From the NCBI RefSeq assembly GCF_030623445.1, contig NZ_CP130613.1, positions 2,418,001-2,482,000 of the forward strand: a DNA stretch of 64,000 nt. Reading direction: 5' to 3'. The DNA is from Pseudogemmatithrix spongiicola. Its GTDB lineage: Bacteria; Gemmatimonadota; Gemmatimonadetes; Gemmatimonadales; Gemmatimonadaceae. The notes beneath the pieces are model-generated. The model saw only the letters and a list, made by a program, of their open reading frames with translations, made no database searches and was not told where the DNA came from. Positions 1,811 to 51,714 of the stretch are shown here, in pieces. Every line of letters starts with the position of its first letter. Positions within the stretch are counted from its first letter, which is position 1. A program made the translations under genes and the position numbers.

Positions 1811-2767
1811 ATGCGTAGAGTGCTGCTGGTCGGCGCGACAGGCAGCATCGGACGCGCGACGGCGCAGGCGCTGGTCGATGCCGGCTGTGCCCCGGTCGCC
1901 ATCGTGCGTCCGGGGCGCGAGGTGCAGATGCCTGCCGGTGTCGAAGTTCGCCAAGCCAACGTGCGCGACGCCGCCTCACTCGCCGGCGACGCGTTCCGCG
2001 GCGAACGCTTCGACGCCGTCATCTCCTGCCTCGCCTCCCGCACCGGCGCTCCGAAGGACGCGTGGGCGATCGACGACGGCGCCAATCGTGCGGTGCTGAC
2101 CGAGGCCCAGCGCTGCGGCGTGCCGCACTTCGTGCTGCTCTCGGCGATCTGCGTGCAGAAGCCGCGGCTGGCCTTCCAGCACGCCAAGCTCGCGTTCGAG
2201 GAGACGTTGGCCGAGAGCGGAATCCGCTACTCAATCGTGCGGCCGACGGCGTTCTTCAAGTCGCTGTCCGGGCAGGTCGAGCGCGTGAAGCGCGGCAAGC
2301 CGTTCCTGCTCTTCGGCGATGGGGCGCTCACGGCCTGCCTGCCGATCAGCGACGCGGACGCGGCGCGGTACCTCGTGGAATGCATCGCGGACGAGTCGCG
2401 CTGGAACCGCGTGCTGCCGATCGGCGGACCGGGCCCGGTGCTGACGCTGCGCGAGCAGGGCATGCTGCTCTTCGAACTGACCGGGCAGCCTCCGAAGTTC
2501 CGCTCGGTGTCGCCGAAGCTGCTCCTGGTGGTGGCCTCGCTGCTGGACGCAGTGGGCGCGCTGATTCCCCCGCTGCTCGACAAGGCGGAGTTCGCGCGCA
2601 TCGGGCACTACTACGCGACGGAGAGCATGCTGCTCTGGGACGAGGCGCGCGGCCGCTACGACGCCGACGCGACGCCGCGCTACGGCCGTGACACGCTGCG
2701 CGAGCACTATGCGCAGTTGCTGCGCGGCGAGATTGGGGACGACCGCGGGGCGCACGCGGTCTTCTGA
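1811..2767 (+). CDS. NAD(P)-binding oxidoreductase of the divinyl chlorophyllide 8-vinyl reductase (BciA/DVR) type
   Basis: 318 residues from the ATG at 1811 (an adjoining in-frame GTG at 1808 is possible). Atypical short-chain dehydrogenase with a Rossmann GATGSIG at the N terminus. Several blocks match, from memory, plant DVR and green-sulfur-bacterial BciA closely: SIVRPTAFFKSL, GQVERVKRGKPF, FGDG..TAC.PIS, LPIGGPG and the C-terminal IGHYYATESML. BciA/DVR reduces the 8-vinyl group of divinyl (proto)chlorophyllide with NADPH. No other pigment gene lies in the window, so the substrate here is uncertain; homologues are also found in non-phototrophs. It stands alone between a secreted protein and an ATP-grasp gene. 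Confidence 0.78.
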   Translation: MRRVLLVGATGSIGRATAQALVDAGCAPVAIVRPGREVQMPAGVEVRQANVRDAASLAGDAFRGERFDAVISCLASRTGAPKDAWAIDDGANRAVLTEAQRCGVPHFVLLSAICVQKPRLAFQHAKLAFEETLAESGIRYSIVRPTAFFKSLSGQVERVKRGKPFLLFGDGALTACLPISDADAARYLVECIADESRWNRVLPIGGPGPVLTLREQGMLLFELTGQPPKFRSVSPKLLLVVASLLDAVGALIPPLLDKAEFARIGHYYATESMLLWDEARGRYDADATPRYGRDTLREHYAQLLRGEIGDDRGAHAVF

Positions 2768-2823: not shown

Positions 2824-3732
2824 ATGCCCCGCACCGCCGACATCGCCCTCGTCTCCGAGCGCCGCTACGTGGGCCGCGAGCCCGCCGCCGACGACTGGTA
2901 TCTCCGCAACATCCTGCACGACGACCGCCTGCTCACGGAGGCGTTGGCCGCGCGGGGGCTCTCAACGGAGCGGGTGGATTGGTCGGATGCGTCCGTGGAC
3001 TGGGCGTCGTACCGGCTCGCCGTGTTCCGCACGACCTGGGACTACTTCGACCGCTTCCCCGAGTTCACCGCCTGGCTCAAGCGTGCCGAGCGCCTCGTCC
3101 CCTTCATCAACGACGCGCGCACGGTGTGGTGGAACCTCGACAAGCACTACCTCGGCGACCTCGAGCGCCGCGGTGTGGCGATCGTGCCGTCCGTCTACCA
3201 CGAGGCCGCCAGTCCCGAGACCTTGCCTGAGCTCGTCGCGCGCTGTGGCTGGGACGAAGGCGTGCTCAAGCCCTGCGTGAGCGGGGCGGCACGGCACACC
3301 TACCGCGTGGACGCCGCGAACGCGGCCGCCTTGCAGGAAACGTTGGCGCCGGTGCTCGCGCAGGAGGCGTTCATGTACCAGCCCTTCGTGCGCGACATCC
3401 AAGTCGGCGGCGAGCGGTCGGTGATGGTGCTCGACGGCGTCGCGACGCATGCCGTGCAGAAAGTGCCGAAGGCCGGTGACTTCCGCGTGCAGGACGACCA
3501 TGGCGGCACGTGGTCGCCGTACGAGCCGACGGCCGCGGAGATCGCCTTTGCGCAGCGGGCGATCGCGGCGGTAGACCCGCACCCGCAGTACGGGCGCGTG
3601 GACATCGTGCGCGGGAACGACGGGGCGATCCAGCTCATGGAGCTGGAGCTGATTGAGCCCGAGCTGTGGCTGCGGTCCAAGCCGGAGGCCGCGGCGCGAT
3701 TCGCGGCGGCGATCGCGGCGGCGGTGCCGTAA
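2824..3732 (+). CDS. ATP-grasp domain protein, DcsG-like
   Basis: 302 residues. The N-terminal half has the FRTTWDYFDR..EF..WL stretch seen in the family that includes the D-cycloserine ligase DcsG and glutathione-synthetase-like proteins. Further on come VLKPCVSGAAR (ATP-binding lysine region), FMYQPFV, GERSVMV, and near the C terminus the metal/ATP-binding MELELIEPELW. Such enzymes join a carboxylate to an amine through an acyl-phosphate. The real substrate is unknown. No biosynthetic partners are adjacent: the neighbours are an oxidoreductase upstream and a convergent clpP downstream. Confidence 0.82.
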   Translation: MPRTADIALVSERRYVGREPAADDWYLRNILHDDRLLTEALAARGLSTERVDWSDASVDWASYRLAVFRTTWDYFDRFPEFTAWLKRAERLVPFINDARTVWWNLDKHYLGDLERRGVAIVPSVYHEAASPETLPELVARCGWDEGVLKPCVSGAARHTYRVDAANAAALQETLAPVLAQEAFMYQPFVRDIQVGGERSVMVLDGVATHAVQKVPKAGDFRVQDDHGGTWSPYEPTAAEIAFAQRAIAAVDPHPQYGRVDIVRGNDGAIQLMELELIEPELWLRSKPEAAARFAAAIAAAVP

Positions 3733-5356: not shown

Positions 5357-5572
5357 ATGACCAAGCGCCTGCAGACCTACCAAGGCAACGGTGTCGAAGT
5401 CACCTTCGACCCCAACATCTGCACCCACTCTGCGAAGTGCGTGCGCGGACTGCCCGCAGTGTTCGACACCCGTCGCCAGCGCTGGGTGGACGTCGACGCC
5501 GCGAGCGCCGACGAGATCATCGCACAAGTGGCCAAGTGTCCGTCGGGAGCGCTGCAGGCGCGGAAGCTCTAG
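5357..5572 (+). CDS. Divergent 4Fe-4S mono-cluster protein
   Basis: 71 residues; the ATG at 5357 comes just after the TAG of the preceding gene. Matches the small Fer4_19-type family: VTFDPNICTHSAKCVRGLPAVFD, then a spacer, then AKCPSGAL. The three cysteines of that family are all present. Likely a cytoplasmic electron carrier or redox sensor, often found beside YjdI-like or acetyltransferase genes; no obvious partner is seen here. Confidence 0.85.
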   Translation: MTKRLQTYQGNGVEVTFDPNICTHSAKCVRGLPAVFDTRRQRWVDVDAASADEIIAQVAKCPSGALQARKL

Positions 5573-14062: not shown

Positions 14063-14997
14063 GCGGCGGGCTGGAGCCGGCGTCGCACGAGGCCAACGAC
14101 GCCCAGCAGGCCCACGACGAGACCGCCGGCCACGATGCCGACCAGCGCGTCGGCAAGCAGTTTCACGACGCCGCCCGCAGGTCCCGCCGCGTGCTCCACG
14201 CTCGCGACGAGCTGCTCGATGGCGGGAACGCCGTGCGCCACGATGCTGCCGCCGACGAGGAACATCGCCGCCGTGCCGACCACCGATAGCGTGCGCATGA
14301 GCCACGGCGCCATCCGCAGGATCGCGGCGCCGAAGGCGCGGCTCGACGCCGCCGCTGGGTTGTCGCCCGCGGCGCGCAGCAGCTGCAGGCCGAGGTCGTC
14401 GAGCTTGACGATGCCCGCGACCAAGCCGTAGACCAACACCGTGATGCCGATGGCGATGGCGCTCAGCGCAGCGATCTGCTGGCCAATCGGCGCATCAGCC
14501 ATCGTGCCCAGCGCGATGACGACGATCTCCGCCGAGAGGATGAAGTCGGTGCGGATGGCCCCACGGATACGGCCGCGCTCAAGCGCGACGACGTCCACCG
14601 CGGGATTCACCAAGGCCGCCGCCATCGTCGCGCGCGCCGCCTTGTCCTCGGGCGTCGGAGCGCGATGCGCGACCTTGTGCCAGACCTTCTCGAATCCCTC
14701 GTAACACAGGAAGATGCCGCCGACCATGAGCAGCGGCACGATCAGCCGCGGCGCGAAGGCGCTGATCAGCAACGCCGCCGGGACGAGGATGAGCTTGTTT
14801 ACGAAGGAGCCCTTCGCCACGGCCCAGACCACGGGAATCTCGCGGTCGGGCGTGAAGCCCGTCACCTGCTCCGCGTTCAATGCGAGGTCGTCACCGACGA
14901 CACCGGAGGTCTTCTTGACGGCGACCTTGCTGAGCACGGCGACGTCGTCGAGCAGCGTCGTGATGTCGTCGAGGAGGGCGAGGAGACTGGAAGCCAT
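14038..14997 (-). CDS. DUF808 (YedI-type) membrane protein
   Basis: 319 residues from the ATG at 14997 (the longer in-frame reading back to 15225 has no membrane or family features in its extra part). It starts MASSLLALLDDITTLLDDVAVLSKVAVKKTSGVVGDDLALN, the conserved beginning of the DUF808 family, and continues with several membrane spans, GGIFLCYEGFEKVWHK and GAIRTDFILSAEIVVIALG. Inner membrane, function unknown. Divergent from ybjQ-like 15101, with about 100 bases between that must hold both promoters. Confidence 0.92.
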   Translation of the reverse strand: MASSLLALLDDITTLLDDVAVLSKVAVKKTSGVVGDDLALNAEQVTGFTPDREIPVVWAVAKGSFVNKLILVPAALLISAFAPRLIVPLLMVGGIFLCYEGFEKVWHKVAHRAPTPEDKAARATMAAALVNPAVDVVALERGRIRGAIRTDFILSAEIVVIALGTMADAPIGQQIAALSAIAIGITVLVYGLVAGIVKLDDLGLQLLRAAGDNPAAASSRAFGAAILRMAPWLMRTLSVVGTAAMFLVGGSIVAHGVPAIEQLVASVEHAAGPAGGVVKLLADALVGIVAGGLVVGLLGVVGLVRRRLQPAAQRRDTKE

Positions 14998-15100
14998 GGC
15001 TAGAAAGCAAGCTTTTGCCTGACACAGGGCAAGTGCCGTCGCCGTAGTTTTCCGGTACGCCGCACGCCGCGGCGTCGCCACCGGGAGGAAGCGCAGCGCC

Positions 15101-15424
15101 ATGCTCGTCGTCACCACCGATACCATCGAAGGCCGCCCCGTCAAGAAGACCCTCGGACTCGTCTCCGGCGAGGCCATCCTCGGCGCGAACATCTTTCGCG
15201 ACTTCTTCGCCGGTATCCGCGACATCGTCGGCGGACGATCGGCGGCCTACGAGGAGGAGCTGCGCAAGGCGAAGGACATTGCCATCGCCGAAATGCGCCA
15301 GCAGGCGGCGGAAATGGGCGCCAACGCCGTCGTCGGCGTGGACCTGGACTACGAGAACATCACCGTAGGACAGACAGGCGGGATGCTCATGGTGAGCGCG
15401 AGCGGGACGGCAGTCGTCGTGTAG
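15101..15424 (+). CDS. YbjQ/UPF0145-family protein
   Basis: 107 residues with the whole family pattern: [90 protein letters not shown]-like ribosome site (GGGAGGA) lies upstream of the ATG. The family forms small ring oligomers and was once called heavy-metal binding; its function is unproven. Cytoplasmic. Followed by a short GC hairpin. Confidence 0.94.
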
Positions 15425-15433
15425 GCGGAATCG

Positions 15434-15449
15434 GCCCCCAGCAGGGGGC
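15434..15449 (+). terminator. Short GC hairpin after the YbjQ-like gene
   Basis: Six-base stem GCCCCC/GGGGGC with an AGCA loop, nine bases past the stop at 15424. No T-run follows; a weak terminator at best. Confidence 0.3.
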
Positions 15450-15569
15450 AGCTCGGCCCCGCCGCAACGCGGCTCGGCCCGCATGAAACCCTGCCCCCTC
15501 GGTCGCTGTAGATTACGAACGGCCAACCCCGGCAGCCCGCGGGGTGTCTATCCTAATTGCTAGGACTCG

Positions 15570-16253
15570 ATGCGCACGTCTCTCTCTCTCCTCCCGCTGC
15601 TCGCCCTCGTCGCGGTGGCTGCCTGCGCCCCACAGGGCGGCGTGGCGACCGGCCCGACGCCGATGACTGAGGCCGATCGTGTCCGTGCCGACTCCATCCG
15701 GCTGCCGTACACGGATGCCGACGTCACATTCATGACCGAGATGATCGGGCACCACGCCCAGGCGATCCTCATCTCGCGGTGGGTCCCCAGTCACACGGAC
15801 GATGCGGAGATGCGGACGCTCGCCGCCCGCATCATCAATGCCCAGACCGACGACATCGCCCTCATGCGCCGCTGGCTGGCCGAGCGCGGCAAGCCGGTGC
15901 CCAGCGTGACACCCGACGGCGTGCTCGTGCCGCCTCCCGCCGACCCGAACGACGAACACGCGGGGCACGACATGGGCGGGCACGACCATTCGATGATGGC
16001 CGGCATGCTCACGCCGGCGCAGCTCACCGAGCTCGACGCCGCACGCGGCGACCAGTTCAACATCCTGTTCCTCCAGCGGATGATCAACCACCACCGGGGC
16101 GCGGTCACGATGGTGCAGACGCTCATCCGCGACGGCGGCGCGATCGACGAGACCGTGTTCCGCTTCGCCGCCGACGTCGAGGTGGACCAGTCCACCGAGA
16201 TCCGGCGCATGCTCACCATGCTCCTCGAGCGCGACGGGCTCCCGCCCGCATGA
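15570..16253 (+). CDS. DUF305-domain lipoprotein
   Basis: 227 residues. Signal peptide with lipobox: MRTSLSLLPLLALVAVAAC. The DUF305 fold shows as two similar halves, FMTEMIGHHAQAILIS and FLQRMINHHRGAVTMV, each with the HH pair that gives this ferritin-like family potential metal sites. Between them lies a His/Met-rich linker (DEHAGHDMGGHDHSMM), suited to copper or silver. Periplasmic, membrane-anchored. Separated by 44 bases from the LVIVD-repeat gene, very likely the same operon. Confidence 0.9.
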   Translation: MRTSLSLLPLLALVAVAACAPQGGVATGPTPMTEADRVRADSIRLPYTDADVTFMTEMIGHHAQAILISRWVPSHTDDAEMRTLAARIINAQTDDIALMRRWLAERGKPVPSVTPDGVLVPPPADPNDEHAGHDMGGHDHSMMAGMLTPAQLTELDAARGDQFNILFLQRMINHHRGAVTMVQTLIRDGGAIDETVFRFAADVEVDQSTEIRRMLTMLLERDGLPPA

Positions 16254-50583: not shown

Positions 50584-51714
50584 TCAGGCCGGAGCGCCCA
50601 CCCCCAGTGCGGAGATGATCTTCCCGGCAACGTCGTTCAGCTTCTTCGCTGCCGTGGAGGTCGGGCCACTCACGACGATCGGCGCACCGCGGTCCGCGCC
50701 TTCGAGCACAGGCGGATACAGCGGCACTTCCCCGAGCAGGGGCACCTGCAGCTCATCGGCGAGGCGCTTGCCGCCGCCCGTGCCGAAGATGGCCATCGGC
50801 TTCCCCGTCTCCGGGGACTCGAAGTAGCTCATGTTCTCGACGACGCCCAGCACGGGCACGCCGACGCGCTCGAACATCTTGGCGCCGCGGAGGGCGTCGC
50901 CGACGGCGACTTCCTGCGGCGTGGTGACGATGACGGCGCCGGCCACCTGCGTGGCCTGCACCAGCGAGAGCTGCGCGTCGCCGGTGCCCGGAGGCATGTC
51001 GACGAGCAGGAAGTCGAGCCGACCCCAGTTCACGTCGCGCAGGAACTGGGTGATGATCTTCATGACGATCGGCCCGCGCCAGATGGCGGGCTGGTCACGC
51101 TCGATGAGGAATCCGAGCGAGATCACCTTCACGCCGTGCGCGAGCAGGGGCTGGATCTTGTCGTCCTGCACGGGCGGCGCCTCGTCCACGCCCATCATCC
51201 GGGGGATGTTGGGGCCGTAGATGTCGGCGTCCATCAGTCCCACGTGATACCCCAGTTTGGCCAAAGAGATCGCCAAGTTGGTGGTCACGGTGCTCTTGCC
51301 GACGCCGCCCTTGCCGGATGACACGGCGATGATGCGGCCGAGCTGCGGATAGCTCACGGGCTGTGGTGCGGCCGGGGCCTTCGGCGCGGTGTCGGCACCC
51401 ATGACGGGCAGCGCGCGAGACTTGGCCTCGCCGCCCTTCGGCGGGGCGTAGTTGGCATCTGCCGCGGGTTCCGCGGCGTCCTTCACGTCCACCCGCACCT
51501 CGGTGACGCCCTCGACCTTCTCGAGGGCCTGTCGCACCTGCCGCGCCAGCGTCGGGTCATCCTGGGCCGCGAGCAGCAGGGTCACGCGGACCTTGCCCTC
51601 TCGGGTCGCGGCGATGTCGCGCAGCTGCTGCGTCTGGTAGAGCGAGGCGCCCGTGCGGGGATTGGCGATCGGGGCCAGGGCCTCGGCGAGGCGGGCCTGG
51701 AGAGTGTCGGTCAT
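50584..51714 (-). CDS. mrp: Mrp/ApbC-type P-loop iron-sulfur carrier
   Basis: 376 residues from the ATG at 51714. A MIP18/DUF59-type domain (residues about 1-80, with VRVTLLLAAQDDPTLARQVRQAL) is followed by the P-loop domain: AVSSGKGGVGKSTVTTNLAISLAKLG, MDADIYGPNIPRMMG, DMPPGTGDAQLSLVQ. In the family, ATP hydrolysis drives transfer of an iron-sulfur cluster that is often held by a CxxC after the ENMSYF motif. Here that place reads ENMSYFESPETGKPMAIFG with no cysteines, an unusual loss. First gene of the mrp-nitrilase-GNAT operon. Confidence 0.94.
   Translation of the reverse strand: MTDTLQARLAEALAPIANPRTGASLYQTQQLRDIAATREGKVRVTLLLAAQDDPTLARQVRQALEKVEGVTEVRVDVKDAAEPAADANYAPPKGGEAKSRALPVMGADTAPKAPAAPQPVSYPQLGRIIAVSSGKGGVGKSTVTTNLAISLAKLGYHVGLMDADIYGPNIPRMMGVDEAPPVQDDKIQPLLAHGVKVISLGFLIERDQPAIWRGPIVMKIITQFLRDVNWGRLDFLLVDMPPGTGDAQLSLVQATQVAGAVIVTTPQEVAVGDALRGAKMFERVGVPVLGVVENMSYFESPETGKPMAIFGTGGGKRLADELQVPLLGEVPLYPPVLEGADRGAPIVVSGPTSTAAKKLNDVAGKIISALGVGAPA

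Follow-up and report, generated by a model that had tools for sequence, protein, structure and literature searches.

A gene whose predicted product resembles chlorophyllide 8-vinyl reductase lies in a 64-kb stretch of the Pseudogemmatithrix spongiicola chromosome (the window), in which the sequence-only reading had seen no bch, puf or acsF gene. This raises the question of whether the gene serves a phototroph from outside its photosynthesis cluster, or whether it encodes an enzyme for another tetrapyrrole in a non-phototroph. The analysis below indicates that the product is almost certainly BciA, the 8-vinyl chlorophyllide reductase of a strain whose gene content is that of a phototroph, where it most likely replaces BciB.

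We compared the protein, which begins MRRVLLVGATGSIGR when read from the ATG at 1811 (an alternative GTG start lies at 1808), with 70 BciA sequences from public genomes of green sulfur, cyanobacterial, purple and gemmatimonadotal phototrophs. Pairwise BLASTP gave 47–68% identity over the full length (at least 313 residues) with E values of 1e-98 to 1e-152, far beyond chance, against 30–33% identity over about 220–310 residues for four other NAD(P)H-binding SDRs. Pfam places NAD_binding_10 (1e-21) and NmrA on the product; no BciA model of NCBIfam release 20.0 matches it, and the top scores there belong to general SDR models far below their cut-off. Of the positions conserved in 95% or more of 51 BciA sequences from outside the Gemmatimonadota, 78 in all, the window protein keeps 75, the exceptions being V28P, L184A and P234S, and the four other SDRs keep just 24–36. 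In the BciA tree, built like all our trees from fetched loci, the window sequence falls inside the family, in a Gemmatimonadaceae clade (97/94) among sequences of the purple-bacterial type, on a long end branch (0.62–0.66). An approximate plant DVR sequence served as bait in the first alignment row and in the genome scan and was excluded from every tree; the 47% identity between this bait and the window protein is a lead only. Because identity extends over the full length and 75 of 78 positions are kept, the motifs VRPTAFFKSL, LPIGGPG and YYATESML, from which the sequence-only reading had recognised a BciA/DVR-like reductase, belong to a genuine match to the family, and that assignment held in both the tree and the residue comparison. 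Judged by its sequence, the product is a full-length BciA/DVR, an ordinary bacteriochlorophyll-making enzyme (Table 1).

Table 1. Coordinates of bciA, of motifs within it and of one orthologue outside the Gemmatimonadaceae (window positions unless a locus is given)
Feature	Position	Strand	Remarks
bciA open reading frame	1811..2767	+	318 aa, stop codon included; ORF list, Pfam, BLASTP, tree, AlphaFold2 model
GxxGxxG dinucleotide-binding loop, G8-A-T-G-S-I-G14	1832..1852	+	G8, T10, G11 and G14 invariant
F122-Q-H-A-K126, at the YxxxK position of typical SDRs	2174..2188	+	Phe replaces Tyr
VRPTAFFKSL motif, aa 143-152	2237..2266	+	conserved-position alignment
LPIGGPG motif, aa 202-208	2414..2434	+	conserved-position alignment
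YYATESML motif, C-terminal region, aa 267-274	2609..2632	+	conserved-position alignment
BciA gene of G270	L206 (G270:C17:14001-33000), 14643-15599	-	

The AlphaFold2 model of the protein is confident (mean pLDDT 93.2, pTM 0.91) and has strands alternating with helices, as in a Rossmann SDR. The GxxGxxG motif has also been named for characterised BciA (PMC3931815). Across the aligned BciA family an FxxxK pair (F122 and K126) is almost invariant where SDRs have YxxxK: F122, Q123, A125 and K126 are invariant in 25 BciA sequences and at least 95% conserved in 51, and in the model the segment sits within a helix spanning residues 121–134. K126 may be catalytic at this site without the tyrosine. Length, GxxGxxG, the three long motifs and the 75 conserved positions are shared with the BciA/DVR enzymes of Chlorobaculum tepidum, Rhodobacter sphaeroides, Acaryochloris marina and plants, which likewise occur in organisms with a bacteriochlorophyll or chlorophyll pathway. 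The window enzyme differs from them in its long branch, its three substitutions and the distance of its gene from the photosynthesis cluster; Rhodobacter sp. CZR27 likewise carries no pigment gene less than 20 kb from its bciA. SimC7, YtfG and other PDB entries from the NmrA/NAD_binding_10 group of atypical SDRs have the Rossmann domain in common with the window protein but are about 30–35% identical to it, mostly in the N-terminal two thirds.

TBLASTN of the window with the strain's own photosynthesis-cluster proteins and a congener BciB matched only BciA and a BchX-like stretch, in agreement with the earlier view that the 64 kb hold no bch, puf or acsF gene. The BchX-like stretch (50707–51336, - strand, 25% identity) probably encodes a ParA/NifH-like ATPase rather than a pigment enzyme. 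The chromosome is a single contig of 3,257,781 bp, of which the window covers bases 2,418,001–2,482,000, and it carries two photosynthesis blocks: hemE, hemA, tspO, bchP, bch2, bchG, ppsR, bchB, bchH, bchL, bchM, acsF, puhA and puhB at 112–137 kb, and puhE, bchD, bchI, bchC, bchX, bchY, bchZ, pufL and pufM at 180–193 kb (hemA, tspO and bchG were named by sequence and position, not by a curated model, and Pfam PUCC matches bch2). For P. spongiicola 318T, a freshwater sponge isolate and potential photoheterotroph whose pink to salmon colonies were attributed to carotenoids, the published description gives two clusters separated by 39 unrelated ORFs (PMC11271474). On a circular chromosome bciA would be about 0.95–1.03 Mb from these blocks, and no PpsR-type box (TGTN12ACA) is found upstream of it. 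Of the two possibilities raised by the sequence-only reading, the phototroph with its gene outside the cluster is thus borne out by the pigment and reaction-centre genes found in the same chromosome, and the option of a non-phototroph falls away for this strain.

Among 148 Gemmatimonadaceae genomes, a BciA orthologue occurs in 25 (24 full length and one fragment, in G100) and PufLM in 30; 22 genomes have both, 3 BciA only and 8 PufLM only (Fisher p = 1e-16, which ignores relatedness and is descriptive only, as is a further Fisher value of 4e-6 in this analysis). Two of the three genomes with BciA and without PufLM look like phototrophs with assembly gaps because other pigment genes are present (AcsF, BchP and the end of a BchH gene in G052, BchP in G073); the third, G101, is 74% complete. 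No PufL-bearing plasmid record is among the BciA-bearing records. An FrhB-type protein, BciB, is found in 7 of the 8 PufLM genomes without BciA (FrhB domains checked for G116), and an intact FrhB/BciB in none of the 22 with BciA and PufLM. The FrhB_FdhB N and C domains were not found in the P. spongiicola genome, the window protein matching NAD_binding_10 instead. BciA or BciB is kept in 29 of the 30 PufLM genomes. In the remaining one, G031, PufLM and BchX are present and neither BciA nor BciB was found; here the 8-vinyl group may be reduced by BchXYZ.

BciB carries out the same reaction as BciA but is ferredoxin-dependent and belongs to an unrelated family, that of the F420 hydrogenase beta subunit, with different cofactors. 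In three congeners (G116, G087 and G139) the gene order is bchG-bch2-bciB-bchP-tspO-hemA-hemE, with bciB occupying a gap of 1235–1253 bp between bch2 and bchP. P. spongiicola has the same genes in the same order without bciB, with 6 bp between bch2 and bchP; in other BciA genomes the gap is about 18–134 bp. One further BciA genome, G018, has a gap of 689 bp with a shortened BciB-like ORF (L042:1084-1746) of about 220 residues (221 from the first ATG), whose match to FrhB_FdhB_C is confined to the C-terminal part of that domain. Other BciB stretches match it weakly, and by these matches it looks like a decaying bciB. A tree of PufL and PufM nests the window strain among the BciB-bearing congeners (97/94). 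Since the congener slot holds bciB, the slot of P. spongiicola is closed and G018 keeps a remnant, BciA most likely replaced BciB in this lineage, BciB being lost and BciA gained.

Both the direction of this replacement and a gain of bciA from within the family are what we infer from these patterns. In the BciA tree the window sequence groups with G127 (98/97), which belongs to a different genus, and this agrees with a transfer inside the family. A different history, to which we would give a clearly lesser though real chance, is that the ancestral phototrophic Gemmatimonadaceae had BciA alongside BciB and that one of the two was then lost in each lineage; the window strain would have kept an old BciA with its function unchanged. 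This history stays a live rival because other placements survive the AU tests (p = 0.11 for a grouping with G027, others near the limit at p = 0.056), so that an old position for the window BciA is compatible with the data, and G018, with BciA plus a BciB-like remnant, indicates that the two genes were together at least once. However, the nesting of the window strain inside the BciB group means that a two-gene ancestor requires about three separate BciA losses in the congeners against one gain, and the six phototrophic congeners yielded no BciA orthologue. In one congener without bciA (G070), a catalase-peroxidase-like gene stands at the bciA position and the downstream ATP-grasp, clpP and amidohydrolase genes are kept.

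The ATP-grasp gene directly downstream of bciA in the window (2824–3732, + strand) encodes a protein with a likeness to the D-cycloserine synthetase DcsG (NCBIfam, below cut-off), and it adjoins clpP in G070 as well. Further downstream, 5360–5572 on the + strand encodes a small ferredoxin-like protein (Pfam Fer4_19, a divergent 4Fe-4S mono-cluster).

By orthology to the tested enzymes, the window BciA would reduce the C8-vinyl group of 8-vinyl chlorophyllide to ethyl with NADPH, en route to bacteriochlorophyll a, and would thereby serve P. spongiicola in place of BciB. Purified BciA of R. sphaeroides and C. tepidum reduces divinyl protochlorophyllide with NADPH (PMC3931815), and 8-vinyl chlorophyllide is the preferred in vivo substrate of the R. 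sphaeroides enzyme (PMC4214422). The chlorophyllide oxidoreductase BchXYZ (COR) of bacteriochlorophyll a producers is also able to reduce the 8-vinyl group (PMC4214422), so BciA is possibly partly redundant. Taken further, BciA could be present but dispensable, with BchXYZ doing most of the reduction, as might be expected from R. sphaeroides without bciA, which still makes 8-ethyl bacteriochlorophyll via COR (PMC4214422), and from G031, which lacks both reductases. We consider this unlikely, as the retention of one or the other in nearly all PufLM genomes points to selection for keeping a dedicated reductase, and in R. sphaeroides BciA works on 8-vinyl chlorophyllide ahead of COR (PMC4214422).

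An action of this BciA-like SDR on another tetrapyrrole or side chain, and not on bacteriochlorophyll precursors, is extremely improbable. What speaks for it is a metagenome-assembled genome from another family of the class, G270, which is 95% complete and encodes a BciA 61% identical to the window protein; neither PufLM nor AcsF was found in this assembly, nor any photosynthesis gene next to its BciA, and G101 is a similar case. G270 could have BciA without phototrophy or could be missing contigs, and gaps in the assemblies could explain both genomes. It is very unlikely that the BciA orthologues of G270 and perhaps G101, as possible Gemmatimonadota lacking photosynthesis genes, perform vinyl reduction on a non-photosynthetic tetrapyrrole and that the window enzyme shares this role. 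In P. spongiicola the whole pathway is present and BciB is absent, so without this protein only BchXYZ would be left for the 8-vinyl step; in addition, the window protein retains the conserved BciA residues, and the family-wide link of BciA to pigment genes is very strong. An 8-vinyl chlorophyllide reductase acting in bacteriochlorophyll synthesis is the reading that we retain.

The enzyme itself is ordinary and of a known type, and what is added is its assignment and the exchange of BciA for BciB. The 8-vinyl reductase of P. spongiicola can now be named, the literature that we found on its photosynthesis genes making no mention of it. The exchange is a small, clear case of an enzyme class being swapped for an unrelated one at the same step within one genus, with the old bciB slot visible in intact, shrunken and closed states. 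It also bears on an frhB gene reported in the photosynthesis cluster of some lake Gemmatimonadota and discussed there as an F420-reducing hydrogenase (PMC8547001). Complementation with Acaryochloris genes has identified frhB as bciB and an nmrA-like gene as bciA (PMC4836224), and our results suggest that the frhB of the lake Gemmatimonadota, which lies in the bch2-bchP slot (L159:6729-7964; also L158 and L157), is most likely bciB.
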